Source of the DNA: Synechococcus lacustris
GTDB lineage: Bacteria; Cyanobacteriota; Cyanobacteriia; PCC-6307; Cyanobiaceae
DNA length: 64,000 bases
NCBI GenBank assembly: GCA_903943975.1
Contig: CAJAQB010000019.1
Coordinates: 124,001 to 188,000 of the forward strand
Reading direction: 5' to 3'
Shown here: in pieces, positions 16,942 through 55,435 of the stretch
Numbering within the stretch: position 1 is the stretch's first letter
How the letters are laid out: each line of letters begins with the position of its first letter
Position numbers and translations under genes: made by a program
The notes under the pieces: model-generated
The model's input: the letters and a program-made list of their open reading frames with translations, nothing else
Databases searched by the model: none
What the model was told of the DNA's origin: nothing

Positions 16942-18750
16942 ATGAGCGCCAACGCTAAGTGCGCCGCGATCCGCAATATTGCGATCATCGCCCACGTTGA
17001 CCATGGCAAGACCACCCTGGTGGATGCCCTTCTGAAGCAATCAGGCATCTTCCGGGACGGCGAAGCCGTGCCCACCTGCGTAATGGATTCCAACGATCTC
17101 GAACGCGAGCGGGGGATCACGATCCTCTCGAAGAACACCGCGGTTGATTTCGAGGGCACCCGCATCAACATCGTTGACACCCCTGGTCACGCCGACTTCG
17201 GCGGTGAGGTGGAGCGGGTGCTGGGCATGGTTGATGGCTGTTTGCTGATTGTGGACGCCAACGAGGGGCCAATGCCCCAGACCCGTTTCGTGCTCAAAAA
17301 GGCCTTGGAAAAGGGCCTGCGGCCGATCGTGTTTGTTAACAAAATTGACCGACCGCGGGCAGATCCCGAGGTGGCGGTGAGCAAGGTGCTTGATCTGTTC
17401 ATCGATCTCGGTGCCGATGAGGACCAGTGCGATTTCACCTATCTGTTCGGCAGTGGCCTGGGCGGCTTCGCCAAACCAGATATGGCGACAGAAAGCGACA
17501 CAATGCTGCCGCTATTCAAAGCGATCTTGCGCCACGTGCCACCTCCCGTGGGCGATCCCGAGAAGCCCTTCCAGCTGCAGATAACCACCCTTGACTACTC
17601 CGACTTCCTCGGTCGGATTGTGATCGGCAAGATCCACAACGGTGTGGTGAAAGCTGGCCAAACAGCCGCCTTGCTCAAGGATGACGGCACGATCAAACGC
17701 AGTCGGATCACCAAGCTTCTTGGCTTCCAGGGCCTGCAGCGCATCGAGATTCAAGAGGCCAGCGCCGGCGACTTGGTGGCCATTGCTGGTTTTGACGATG
17801 TAAACATCGGTGAAACAGTTGCCTGCCCCGATAGCCCCTTGGCATTGCCGCTGATCAAGGTGGACGAACCCACCTTGCAGATGACTTTCTGCGTAAATGA
17901 TTCCCCCTTCGCTGGTAAGGAGGGCAAGTTTGTTACCAGCCGCCAGCTGCGGGAGCGTTTGCAGAAGGAACTGCTCACCAATGTGGCCCTGCGGGTTGAA
18001 GACACCGACTCCCCAGACCGATTCTCGGTCAGTGGCCGTGGGGAGTTGCACCTCGGCATCCTGATCGAAACCATGCGCCGGGAGGGCTTCGAATTCCAAG
18101 TTTCCCAACCCCAGGTGATTTTCCGCACCATCGATGGCTCCCCCTGTGAGCCCTTCGAAACCCTGGTGCTGGATGTGCCAGAAGAAGCGGTGGGTAACTG
18201 CATCGAACGGCTCGGCATCCGCAAGGGCGAGATGCAAAACATGGAAACGGGCACGGACAACCGCACCCAACTGGAGTTTGTGGTGCCTGCCCGGGGCTTG
18301 ATCGGTTTCCGTGGGGACTTCATCCGCGCCACCCGCGGCGAAGGAATCATGAGCCACTCCTTCCTTGAATACCGCAAGATGCAAGGGGACCTCGACCCCC
18401 GTCGCAATGGGGTGCTGATTTCCTTTGATGAGGGTGTCGCCACCTTCTATGCCCTAAAGGGCGCCGAAGATCGCGGTCAGTTCTTCATTACTCCAGGCAC
18501 CAAGGTGTACAAGGGAATGATTGTTGGTGAAAACAATCGGGCCCAGGATATTGAACTGAATGTCTGTAAGGCAAAGCAGGTCACCAACATCCGTTCCGCC
18601 GGCGCTGAAGTTCTAGACACACTCCAGGCTCCGATCCAGATGAATCTGGAACGGGCCCTGGAATACATCGGTCCCGACGAAATGCTTGAGGTCACCCCCG
18701 AGTCGATTCGGCTGCGTAAGCTGCCCGCCAAGAAGGCCGCCAAGCGCTGA
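16942..18750 (+). CDS. typA: ribosome-associated GTPase TypA/BipA
   Basis: Translational GTPase of the EF-G-like family, 602 aa, involved in ribosome assembly and stress adaptation. The G-domain motifs are intact: AHVDHGKTT (residues 17-25), [31 protein letters not shown], then EF-G-like domains III and V and the BipA-specific C-terminal domain with [16 protein letters not shown]. The start ATG 16942 gives the family N-terminus. The gene is followed 2 nt later by the TTG start of a DUF309 gene and 20 nt later by a strong terminator hairpin lying inside that gene. Confidence 0.97.
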
Positions 18751-18752
18751 AC

Positions 18753-19127
18753 TTGACGGATCCATTTAGTGACCCCCGTTTCGAAGCGGGGGTCATTTTT
18801 TTTAATGGGGGTGATTGGTATGCCAGCCACGACCTCTTTGAGGAACTCTGGCAGGAAACCAATGAACCGGAGCGCCGTTGGTTGCAAGGCATTGTCCAAA
18901 TTGCCGTCGCCCTGCTCCATGGGGAAAGGGGCAATAGCCACGGGGCCATGGTGCTGTTGGGCGAAGGTCTCGGCAGGTTGCGCACGGCCGCAGCCCCCCC
19001 CGCCCATTGGCAGGCACAGCCCTTGATCCAGCCCTGCCAGCAGCGGCTTTCAGCCCTGCAGCGGGGGGAAAATAACCCAGCAGAGCCCTTGCCCCAACTG
19101 ATCTTTTCCAAGCCTGAAGACGGGTAA
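18753..19127 (+). CDS. DUF309 protein containing an intrinsic terminator in its first codons
   Basis: 124-aa DUF309 protein of unknown function. The family core is visible: DPRFEAGVIFFNGGDWY, then the ASHDLFEELWQE helix with its conserved His and Glu, and LQGIVQIAVALLHGERGN with the second His and the GN turn, together suggesting a small helical, possibly metal-binding fold. The start is TTG 18753, 2 nt past the typA stop; no ATG or GTG occurs in frame nearby. Codons 7-17 encode a near-perfect terminator hairpin plus eight T. The stop (19125-19127) is 1 nt before lptA, linking it to the Lpt operon. The combination of coding sequence and terminator is unusual. Confidence 0.85.
   Translation: MTDPFSDPRFEAGVIFFNGGDWYASHDLFEELWQETNEPERRWLQGIVQIAVALLHGERGNSHGAMVLLGEGLGRLRTAAAPPAHWQAQPLIQPCQQRLSALQRGENNPAEPLPQLIFSKPEDG
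18771..18803 (+). terminator. intrinsic terminator 20 nt after typA, inside the DUF309 coding region
   Basis: Inverted repeat GACCCCCG (18771-18778) and CGGGGGTC (18787-18794), extendable inward by TTT/GAA pairs to about 11 bp with a tiny loop, followed by A and eight T (18796-18803). It has the textbook form of a rho-independent terminator and would end typA transcripts, yet it is translated as part of the DUF309 protein (DPRFEAGVIFF). Ribosomes starting at TTG 18753 would cover it. Confidence 0.85.
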
Positions 19128-19128
19128 T

Positions 19129-19677
19129 ATGGCCCTCAACCAAAGCAACGGCCCCATGCCGAACCCTGCGTCGGCGCCGGTCCCCTGGCAGCTAGCTGCT
19201 CTGCTGCTGGGCTGGTTGTGGATACCCGTTGCTGCCACTGCCCAGCCCCAGCCGCTTGCCCAGCCCCAGCCAGTTGTCCAGCCCCAGCCCCTACCCCAGT
19301 CAGAACAAGTTTCTCCCGGCGCTGCGGCTCAAACGCCGGCGGCCCCCTCGGCCGGTCCGCTGATCACCGTGCAATCAGACCTGCAACAGGCCGACAACAC
19401 CACTGGGGTGGTAACTGCCACCGGCAATGTGAGAGTGATTTATCCCGAGAAGAAGCTTGTGGCTACGGCCCGGCAAGCCCAATACTTCACTAAGGAAGGG
19501 CGCATTGTGCTGGTCGGTGATGTGGAGGTGGTGCAGGAGGGGGGCAACCGTCTCAAGGCCCAGCGGGTCACGTATTTGGTGGCGGCAGATCGGCTTGTGG
19601 CTGATCCCGCCCGGGGAGATCAGGTGAAGAGTTGGTTCCGCATCAAGCGTCAGTCAGCGGTGGTACCAAGCCCATGA
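19129..19677 (+). CDS. lptA: LptA/OstA-family lipopolysaccharide transport protein
   Basis: Periplasmic bridge protein of the Lpt machine that carries lipopolysaccharide across the periplasm. 182 aa with a signal peptide (LAALLLGWLWIPVAATA, about 21-37), a repeated Gln-Pro linker (QPQPLAQPQPVVQPQPLPQ, about 39-57), and the OstA beta-jellyroll core: ITVQSDLQQADNTTGVVTAT, GNVRVIYPEKKLVATARQAQ and LVGDVEVVQEGGNRLKAQRV. It overlaps lptB by 4 nt. The repeat linker is longer than in E. coli LptA. Confidence 0.88.
   Translation: MALNQSNGPMPNPASAPVPWQLAALLLGWLWIPVAATAQPQPLAQPQPVVQPQPLPQSEQVSPGAAAQTPAAPSAGPLITVQSDLQQADNTTGVVTATGNVRVIYPEKKLVATARQAQYFTKEGRIVLVGDVEVVQEGGNRLKAQRVTYLVAADRLVADPARGDQVKSWFRIKRQSAVVPSP
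19244..19302 (+). repeat. CAGCCCCAGCC repeats encoding the LptA Gln-Pro linker
   Basis: Imperfect repeats of CAGCCCCAGCC, three clear copies (around 19243, 19261 and 19279) with 18-nt spacing, encode repeated QPQP units. They lie in the flexible region after the signal peptide, so copy number could drift without loss of function. Confidence 0.6.
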
Positions 19678-20402
19678 GCCTGGAGCTCCAGTCTGTTGAG
19701 CTCACCCTCGGTGGTCGCCCGGTGGTGAAGGGGGTGAGCCTGGAATTGCAACCCGGCGAAGTGGTGGGACTACTTGGCCCTAATGGCGCCGGTAAAACCA
19801 CCACCTTCAATCTGGTCACGGGCCTGCTGCGGCCGGATAGTGGTGATGTGCTGCTTGATGGCCGTTCGATTAAGGCCCTGGCCATGCCCCAGCGGGCCCG
19901 CCAGGGCATCGGCTATCTGCCCCAGGAAGCCAGTGTCTTCCGCAGTCTCAGCGTGCGAGACAATCTGCTGCTGGCCCTGCAGGAAAGTGGCTTTCCTGCC
20001 CCCCTACGCCGGGGCCGCCTGGAGGAACTGATCGAGGAATTTCAGTTGGCCCGTTTCTGCCATCGCCGTGGCTTTCAACTCTCCGGGGGGGAACGGCGCC
20101 GCACGGAGGTGGCCAGGGCCCTAGCGGTGGGCCGAGAGGGGCCCCGTTTTCTGTTGCTAGATGAACCCTTTGCCGGCGTTGATCCCCTGGCGGTCCATGA
20201 CCTTCAACATCTGATCACCAGCCTCAAGTTGAAGGGGGTGGGCATGCTGATCACCGACCACAACGTCAGGGAAACCCTGACGATCACCGACCGTGCCTAC
20301 ATCCTCACCGAAGGCCAGATTTTGGCCGCCGGTACGGCCCTGGAGGTGGCGGCAAATCCCCAGGTGAAACGCCATTACCTCGGAGAAAGCTTCAAGTTGT
20401 GA
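19674..20402 (+). CDS. lptB: LPS export ABC transporter ATPase LptB
   Basis: Cytoplasmic ATPase of the LptBFG complex, 242 aa. Start ATG 19674 overlaps the lptA stop (ATGA). Walker A GPNGAGKTTTF is at about 37-47, the Q-loop in YLPQEASVF, signature LSGGERRRTEVARAL at about 138-152, Walker B LLLDEPFAGVDPL and the switch histidine in LITDHNVRETL, which is an LptB trait. An upstream in-frame start at 19632 lies inside lptA and is rejected. It overlaps the LptF/G permease gene by 4 nt. Confidence 0.95.
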   Translation: MSLELQSVELTLGGRPVVKGVSLELQPGEVVGLLGPNGAGKTTTFNLVTGLLRPDSGDVLLDGRSIKALAMPQRARQGIGYLPQEASVFRSLSVRDNLLLALQESGFPAPLRRGRLEELIEEFQLARFCHRRGFQLSGGERRRTEVARALAVGREGPRFLLLDEPFAGVDPLAVHDLQHLITSLKLKGVGMLITDHNVRETLTITDRAYILTEGQILAAGTALEVAANPQVKRHYLGESFKL

Positions 20403-21610
20403 TGATGAATTCTTCAGATTCCCGCTCTTTTTTCCGCCAGGTGTTGCAAAGAATCCAGGGCCTGGGCCAGCGCCTCTGGCAAAGGATCCCCTTGATGGAT
20501 CGCTGGTTAGTGGCTGAGTTGGTTGCCCCGCTGCTCTTCGGTGTGGCGGCCTTCACCGCCGTCACCCTTTCCGTGGGGGTGGTGTTTGAACTGGTGCGCA
20601 AGGTGGCGGAAGCGGGCCTGCCCCTTGATGTGGCCCTGAAGGTGTTGCTGTTGAAGTTGCCGGGCTTCCTGGTGCTCTCCTTCCCGATGGCCACGCTGAT
20701 GGCCACCCTGCTGGCCTACAGCCGTCTTTCCGGGGGCAGTGAACTCACGGCCCTGCGCAGCATTGGCGTGTCCACGGCCCGCTTCGTGCTGCCGGCCCTG
20801 GTGCTGGCCGGTCTGATGAGCGGCCTCACATTTGTGTTTAACGACGCAATTGTTCCCCCCAGCAACCGGGCCGGCTATGTAACTCTGCAGAAGGCCTTGG
20901 GCCGCAGCATTGATTCTGAAAAGGGGGAAAATATCATCTATCCCCGCTATGGCAAGGTGGCCGGCGCTGTGGATAGTGAGAAAGAAAGACTCGTACAACT
21001 CTTCTACGCCCGTAACTATTTTAACGGGGCGATGATTGATGTGACTCTTCTTGACTTTAGTCGGCCAAACTATCGGCAGATGTTGAAGGCCAAGCAGGCC
21101 CGCTATGATCAGAAGCGCGGCAGTTGGGAATTCCTGGACGGAAGCATAATTACCATTGCTGAGAATGGTGGAATGAACACCACTGCAGATTTCCTGAGCT
21201 ACTTCTATCCCCTCGACGGTGGACCTATAGACCTGGCTGATCTGCCCAAAGATGCCAACAACATGACCGTTGCCCAGGCCCGGGAGGGGCTCCGTATCCT
21301 TGATCAGGCGGGAGACCGCAAGGAGGCACGCAAGTTAAGGGTTCGTATCCAGGAAAAGTTTTCCTTCCCTGCCATCTGTCTGGTGTTTGGCCTGATTGGC
21401 GCCAGTCTCGGCGCCCGTCCCAACGGTCGCACCAGCCGCAGCCAAGGCTTTGGCATCAGTGTGCTGCTGATTTTTCTCTATTACCTGTTGGCCTTTGTAT
21501 TCAGCTCCCTCGGGGTGAAAGGCACTCTGATCCCCTTCGTGTCTGCCTGGTCCCCAGTGGCGATTGGTCTAGTGGGGGGCCTCTGGCTGCTGCGGGACGC
21601 CAGCCGCTGA
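20399..21610 (+). CDS. lptF: LptF/LptG-family permease (YjgP/YjgQ)
   Basis: Inner-membrane permease that extracts lipopolysaccharide for LptA, about 403 aa. Three membrane spans near the N-terminus ([20 protein letters not shown], then [20 protein letters not shown], then [17 protein letters not shown]), a large periplasmic jellyroll domain (about 150-290) and three spans at the C-terminus ([19 protein letters not shown] onward) give the family layout. Start candidates are GTG 20399, ATG 20402 and ATG 20405. Only one such gene is present here; cyanobacteria often have a single LptF/G homologue, probably acting as a homodimer. Confidence 0.92.
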
Positions 21611-21665: not shown

Positions 21666-22601
21666 GTGTTGAAGGATCCGGTTCTGCTGCTTGGTTTGCT
21701 GGCTTTTGCTTCATTGCTGCTGGCCCTGCCCCTTTCTTTCTGGTCCCTGAGTGCCAGCGGCGGTGCCAGTAGCGGCAAACCTGTCCCAGTGGCCCAGCTG
21801 GTGCGCCTGCTGGTGGTGGCTGCCAATCTGTTGCTCACCAGCCAATTGCTTTGGCGCTGGCTGGATTCTGGTCACTTCCCGATCAGCAATCTCTACGAAT
21901 CCCTCTGTTTTCTGGCCTGGGGTTGCACCCTCACCCAGCTCCTGGTGGAACGTAGTTGGCCCTCACCGCTGGTGCCAGCGGCCACTACGCCCATGGCTTT
22001 GGTTTGTGTGGCCTTTGCCAGCTTTGTGTTGCCAGACAGCCTGCAAAACTCCGCCCCGCTGGTGCCAGCCCTGCGTTCCAGCTGGCTCGTGATGCACGTC
22101 AGCGTGATCATGATGAGCTATGCCGCCCTGCTGGTGGGCTCGCTGTTGTCGTTGGCGGTGCTCTGGACCCAACGGGGTGATGCGGTGGAACTGCGCAGTA
22201 GTTCCATCGGCACTGGCGCCTATCAGCGCTCCCAGCGGGCTGCAGAGGGGCCGCTGCAACTGCAGTCGGTGCCCATTGGTTTGAGTGAACGCCTAGACAA
22301 CCTCAGCTACCGCACGATCACCGTGGGCTTTCTGATGCTCACGATCGGCATCATCAGCGGTGCCGTTTGGGCCAATGAGGCCTGGGGCAGCTGGTGGAGT
22401 TGGGACCCCAAGGAAACCTGGGCCCTGATCTGCTGGTTGGTGTATGCCGCCTACCTACACACCCGCCTCACCAGGGGCTGGCAGGGGCGCCGGCCCGCCT
22501 GGTTGGCGGTGGGGGGTCTGGTGGTGATCAGCGTTTGCTACATCGGCGTCAACCTGCTGGGTATCGGCCTGCATAGCTACGGCTGGTTCTTTGATAGCTG
22601 A
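21666..22601 (+). CDS. ccsA: c-type cytochrome biogenesis protein CcsA
   Basis: Haem-handling membrane protein of system II cytochrome c maturation, 311 aa, acting at the thylakoid lumen with Ccs1/CcsB. Multiple membrane spans include [19 protein letters not shown] and [20 protein letters not shown], the latter holding one of the conserved His. The tryptophan-rich WWD signature lies in [18 protein letters not shown], followed by the AAYLHTR helix with a further His. The start is GTG 21666 or the adjacent TTG 21669. The gene ends in a convergent hairpin shared with rpe. Confidence 0.95.
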
Positions 22602-55397: not shown

Positions 55398-55435
55398 CCC
55401 TGCCGGGCCGCAGTGCGCTCAGGCAGGGTTTTTTT
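55398..55435 (+). terminator. intrinsic terminator after the L,D-transpeptidase gene
   Basis: Stem CCCTGCC (55398-55404) with GGCAGGG (55422-55428) and a 17-nt loop, followed by seven T (55429-55435). Well-formed rho-independent terminator. Confidence 0.8.

Follow-up and report, generated by a model that had tools for sequence, protein, structure and literature searches.

A putative intrinsic terminator inside the DUF309 coding sequence at the typA-lpt junction of Synechococcus lacustris

In a 64,000-nt stretch of DNA from Synechococcus lacustris (hereafter the window), typA is followed on the same strand by a DUF309 gene and by genes for the export of lipopolysaccharide (LPS), and a hairpin with a run of T lies within the first codons of DUF309. 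Is this element a terminator kept by selection or a by-product of the encoded protein, and what would it mean for the genes behind it? We analyzed the locus in the window and in related genomes, and propose that it is probably a selected intrinsic terminator inside a coding sequence, which would partly end the typA mRNA and throttle DUF309-lptA-lptB-lptF.

A terminator-like element within the DUF309 gene

The features of the locus are listed in Table 1. The stop codon of typA (TGA, 18748-18750) was read directly from the sequence, and 18 nt beyond it begins a stable GC-rich hairpin (GUGACCCCCGUUUCGAAGCGGGGGUCAU) directly followed by a U-tract, the last base of the hairpin being the first T of the tract. 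Together they (18769-18803) occupy DUF309 codons 6-17. A sequence-only reading of the window had described a strong terminator with a stem of 8-11 bp and eight T, correctly placed to end the typA transcript and coinciding with DUF309 codons 7-17; the position, the eight T and the codons (GAC of codon 7 to TTT of codon 17 in ORF 18753-19127) are borne out, and the stem is longer, 12 bp, with G.U pairs counted.

Table 1. Coordinates of the features at the typA-DUF309-lpt locus in the window
Feature	Position	Strand	Remarks
typA/bipA, ribosome-associated GTPase	16942..18750	+	Pfam GTP_EFTU, BipA_C; hairpin would end its transcript
DUF309 start codon TTG	18753..18755	+	2 nt past typA stop
DUF309 gene, PF03745, 124 aa	18753..19127	+	Intact ORF; Pfam E 1.5e-20
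Putative terminator hairpin, 12 bp, 4-nt loop	18769..18796	+	-20.9 kcal/mol; DUF309 codons 6-15
U-tract, eight T	18796..18803	+	Encoded by I15-F16-F17 codons ATT TTT TTT; U-tract score 4.85
lptA-like, LptD_N/OstA domain	19129..19677	+	Pfam E 4.1e-07; ATG 19129 one nt past DUF309 stop
lptB-like ABC ATPase	19632..20402	+	Pfam
lptF/lptG-type permease	20399..21610	+	Pfam E 5.8e-70
ccsB/ccsA-type cytochrome c assembly gene	21666..22601	+	Pfam; next gene, same strand, in most relatives

Only two hairpins in the 64-kb window have a U-tract this strong, namely this element and one ending at 55428. The latter (55398-55435, with an equal U-tract, T7) is intergenic, lies ~61 nt past a same-strand stop codon and resembles an ordinary terminator. 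No Rfam family matched the DUF309 hairpin above its gathering threshold (best 23 bits against 55). Weak terminator-like matches ~415 nt upstream, in typA, were set aside as imperfect hairpins in conserved coding sequence.

The DUF309 protein belongs clearly to its family (73 bits against a curated cut-off of 27; PDB relatives 2cwy and 2ijq), on which our literature search found no paper in cyanobacteria. Since the Pfam match starts at residue 10, the hairpin encodes the beginning of the family core, as had been claimed. Downstream of TTG 18753, no further in-frame ATG, GTG or TTG occurs before the conserved core, and the DUF309 genes of genus-mates start at the homologous position (GTG GAA GCA TTT... 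in L002 and GTG GAT CCA TTT... in L003); thus, the hairpin would be translated whenever the DUF309 protein is made, and the putative terminator overlaps translated sequence, as is the case for ribosome-mediated attenuators. The earlier placing of lptA one nucleotide past the DUF309 stop also holds.

Rho and promoter searches

A search in which positive control genomes matched found no Rho gene in this genome, and Rho is absent from the cyanobacterial phylum (PMC13289151). In Synechococcus elongatus, the one cyanobacterium with a detailed map of transcript ends, most of these ends are unexplained, and 3' ends with a hairpin plus U-tract behave as intrinsic terminators, longer U-tracts being stronger and two terminators having been confirmed in vitro (PMC13289151). 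Because Rho is lacking and such ends act as terminators in S. elongatus, termination would be expected at 18797-18803, and activity of the predicted terminator at its U-tract is very probable.

The sequence-only reading had also offered a promoter inside DUF309 for lptA. A search for -10-like TANNNT motifs gave no candidate: from 18804 to 19140 the sole match lies at 19125, too far downstream to serve lptA, and the part of DUF309 downstream of the hairpin has no TANNNT in 21 of 22 hairpin-bearing loci. As DUF309 contains no promoter-like -10 element, the downstream genes would depend on read-through.

Comparison with coding constraint

A simple terminator scan of the region found 7 terminators against 9.6 in shuffled sequences, which is not significant by count, and the fold z-score of the hairpin region was only -2.0. 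Shuffling is the wrong control here, because the codons for D-P-R-F-x-x-G-V alone can spell GACCCC...GGGGTC. Our own terminator score, taken alone, is permissive within GC-rich genes, so weight was placed on synonymous recoding, position and the U-tract. When the first 22 DUF309 codons were recoded synonymously with local codon usage in 20,000 versions, 33 of them reached the score of the hairpin and none equaled it in both stem energy and U-tract; that is, the element goes beyond coding constraint.

Gene order and recurrence in relatives

Relatives were sampled by similarity to the DUF309 of the window, and all counts given here ignore kinship. A search of 300 Cyanobiaceae genomes found DUF309 in 277, and a class-wide search found it in 241 of 242 Cyanobacteriia genomes; a contig search with an alignment query yielded 80 named loci, and a single-protein query found none. 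In every one of the 214 Cyanobiaceae loci taken (214/214), DUF309 comes immediately after typA in the same orientation, and lptB and lptF follow DUF309 in nearly all loci of relatives long enough to tell. Among 174 distinct junctions, 117 have a DUF309 start codon that overlaps the typA stop, and in most of the remainder the two codons are close together. Five genomes of one other cyanobacterial genus (f22/g80; G329, G408, G455, G507 and G512) have one in-frame TAG inside the DUF309 match.

Terminator-like hairpins scoring ≤-18 are located at the L16-F17-N18 codons in 25 of 155 junctions, where synonymous recoding predicts 1.9. With a score of ≤-20, hairpins ending at these codons occur in 22 of 174 junctions and fall into one 25-nt bin, every other such bin within 700 nt on either side containing 0-4. 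The stems vary by lineage: GUGACCCCCGUU... in the window, AGCCUGAUGG...CCGUCAGGCU in a freshwater Vulcanococcus-type group, GGCUCGACGCC... in L146, GAGGACGACC... in both L140 and L123, and GCUGAUCGCC... in L101. On a typA tree the hairpin trait requires ~10 changes, at least five of which are forced by supported branches. The hairpin starts 11-13 nt past the typA stop in L140 and L123, and 84 nt past typA in L101. In L101 and L103, which have hairpins at the same codons, the F10 codon follows the typA stop at a distance of 103 and 83 nt, respectively, so the translational link between typA and DUF309 would be looser there.

Three genus-mates were compared. L002 and L004 lack the window's hairpin, as does L003 (genus-mate G001; reverse complement), which has a weaker and different candidate hairpin, GTGGATC-CATTTTTA-GATCCAC, earlier in the same stretch. 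The L003 hairpin is made of two Asp-Pro codon pairs, contains one base N and is followed by GNTTTT at the DUF309 start. As the three genus-mates lack the window's hairpin, it probably arose on the lineage of the window and is not ancestral, and most relatives thus manage without it. The sequence-only reading had expected a hairpin in close relatives, which fails for these three genus-mates; hairpins stand at the same codons in other lineages.

The DUF309 codons of five loci (L006, L007, L018, L026 and L028) form GACCCCC...GGGGGTC hairpins without a U-tract, showing that the protein motif itself appears to predispose to such stems.

Codon choice and covariation

The Vulcanococcus-type clade uses rare codons at the positions concerned: AGG for Arg15 in 15 of 15 loci (1.7% of Arg codons in these genes), CTT for Leu16 in 16 of 16 (6.4% usage) and AAT for Asn18 in 16 of 16 (9.3% usage). 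AGG and CTT are the codons required by the 3' arm and the U-tract, and common synonyms exist for them. Synonymous conservation, measured as codon identity within this clade, reaches 0.81 over the hairpin codons, compared with 0.58 over the remainder of the gene (p 0.0015); in hairpin-free sisters the corresponding values are 0.53 and 0.62. Moreover, when stem strength is judged without the L16-F17 codons, CTT or TTT is present at L16 in 20 of 31 strong-stem loci against 7 of 63 weak-stem ones among GC-rich loci (p 2e-7, kinship ignored). These codon choices show that the predicted signal is kept by selection.

The earlier proposal that alignment of related genomes would be informative proved correct in that different stems recur at the same position in several lineages, with rare codons conserved. 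It had also asked whether compensatory changes keep the pairing, and here the answer was weaker: in the Vulcanococcus-type clade, the one clade where covariation could be counted, L027 has the single double change (C-G to G-C), one pair varies as U.G, C-G and U-A, and the counts are not convincingly above those in shuffles. The stem hardly differs among these loci, which accounts for the slight covariation.

Proposed mechanism and alternative explanations

We propose the following sequence of events. RNA polymerase leaving typA would meet the hairpin and U-tract 19-53 nt further on, and a fraction would stop there. The typA mRNA would be the main product, and only polymerases that read through would transcribe DUF309, lptA, lptB and lptF. 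By this route the cell may tune its LPS-export genes by whether RNA polymerase passes the predicted terminator.

That translation also takes part, as the sequence-only reading had suggested, is a more tentative matter. A ribosome at the typA stop, or one initiating at TTG 18753, reaches to about 18765-18768, just short of the stem. The sequence-only reading had the ribosome that starts 2 nt past the typA stop cover the stem; the start codon is as described, and such a ribosome (reaching ~18767-18768) would adjoin the stem and could disrupt it only after advancing. The stem is part of a coding sequence and begins just past the reach of a ribosome sitting on the typA stop, so a ribosome re-initiating at TTG 18753 and moving one or two codons on would keep the stem from forming or unfold it. 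More polymerases would then read through when translation continues closely from typA into DUF309, and the terminator may, at somewhat less than even chances, be released in this way. The release step is plausible on this geometry, which is loose in L101. Coupled ribosomes can antiterminate intrinsic terminators, and in the same assays terminators no more than 100 nt into an ORF worked at almost full efficiency (Li et al. 2015, as cited in PMC7858274); at the present locus, however, ribosomes may already follow closely from typA. Transcripts ending at the U-tract would have a DUF309 start and no stop codon, so that re-initiating ribosomes would need rescue.

Neither an antiterminator structure nor a leader peptide with regulatory codons stood out in the fold or on reading through the sequence. 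One candidate antiterminator, ACCCCCG in typA (~18694-18700), could pair with the 3' arm over 7 bp against the 12 bp of the local hairpin; it lies in conserved EVTPES codons and was set aside.

Extended to the whole family, the release step would give a recurrent switch that reads translation: LPS-export transcription would continue only if ribosomes pass from the typA stop into DUF309, with polarity built in without Rho. Reuse of the same codons across lineages would follow from the ease with which the DUF309 motif DPRF..(G/A)V.LFN can be recoded as a terminator. We hold this broader reading to be possible and somewhat more doubtful than release itself.

A static partial terminator, which would fix the ratio of typA to lpt mRNA, with polymerase outrunning the ribosomes so that translation is irrelevant, and which genome compactness would have placed in the next gene, fits all of the terminator evidence equally well. 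Its closeness to the typA stop in the window, as in L140 and L123, is of the kind that has been read as pointing to runaway transcription (Johnson 2020, as cited in PMC7858274). What it leaves unexplained is the linkage to the start codon that is kept in hairpin loci, a weak objection since hairpin-free loci are linked alike, and we regard this explanation as unlikely.

Far less probable is a translational or mRNA-stability element that ties DUF309 translation to typA or shields a typA 3' end produced by processing, the U-run being incidental to the L-F-N codons. The overlap or direct contact of start codon and typA stop at most junctions, and the many GC-rich relatives with strong stems and no U-tract, agree with it, but stem and rare U-rich codons co-occur, and the hairpin-bearing clade has fixed CTT and AAT despite a strong codon bias against them. 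Least probable is a coding coincidence without function, in which D-P-R-F-x-x-G-V spells GAC CCC ... GGG GTC and I-F-F-N spells U8: the motif does favor palindromes (as in L006, L007, L018 and L026) and the genus-mates lack the window's hairpin, but the scarcity of equally good recodings, the family-wide excess over the recoding expectation, the single-bin positional peak and the conserved rare codons speak against it. A selected intrinsic terminator that partly ends the typA mRNA remains the reading we favor.

Comparison with known systems

The element is similar to the intrinsic terminators mapped in S. elongatus PCC 7942 (PMC13289151) in having a GC-rich hairpin and a U-tract shortly after a stop codon, in a phylum that lacks Rho, and differs from them in sitting inside the coding sequence of the next gene. 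The searches for undetected terminators in PCC 7942 covered only the interval between a stop codon and the following start codon (PMC13289151), so an element of this type would have gone uncounted. Terminators hidden in the next gene are missed by intergenic-only searches, and the present case offers a putatively selected element at a fixed codon position ahead of outer-membrane LPS export genes.

With premature termination inside ORFs (E. coli 3' ends within ORFs, PMC7815308; the assays of Li et al. 2015, as cited in PMC7858274), the element shares a terminator in translated sequence that ribosomes can block; unlike those cases, it is located at a linked stop/start gene junction and recurs at the same codons across lineages. 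It possibly resembles trp/his-type ribosome-mediated attenuators in that the position of the ribosome decides whether the terminator hairpin forms, whereas no leader peptide, regulatory codons or antiterminator hairpin was identified at this locus. As in translational coupling by stop/start overlap (TGATG, TTGA), the DUF309 start lies over the typA stop in about two thirds of junctions, but plain coupling has no termination signal. Hairpin-bearing and hairpin-free relatives form a natural set for asking about the coupling of transcription and translation in cyanobacteria. At the level of sequence, the element is best described as a putative intragenic intrinsic terminator at a coupled gene junction that has arisen more than once at the same codons.
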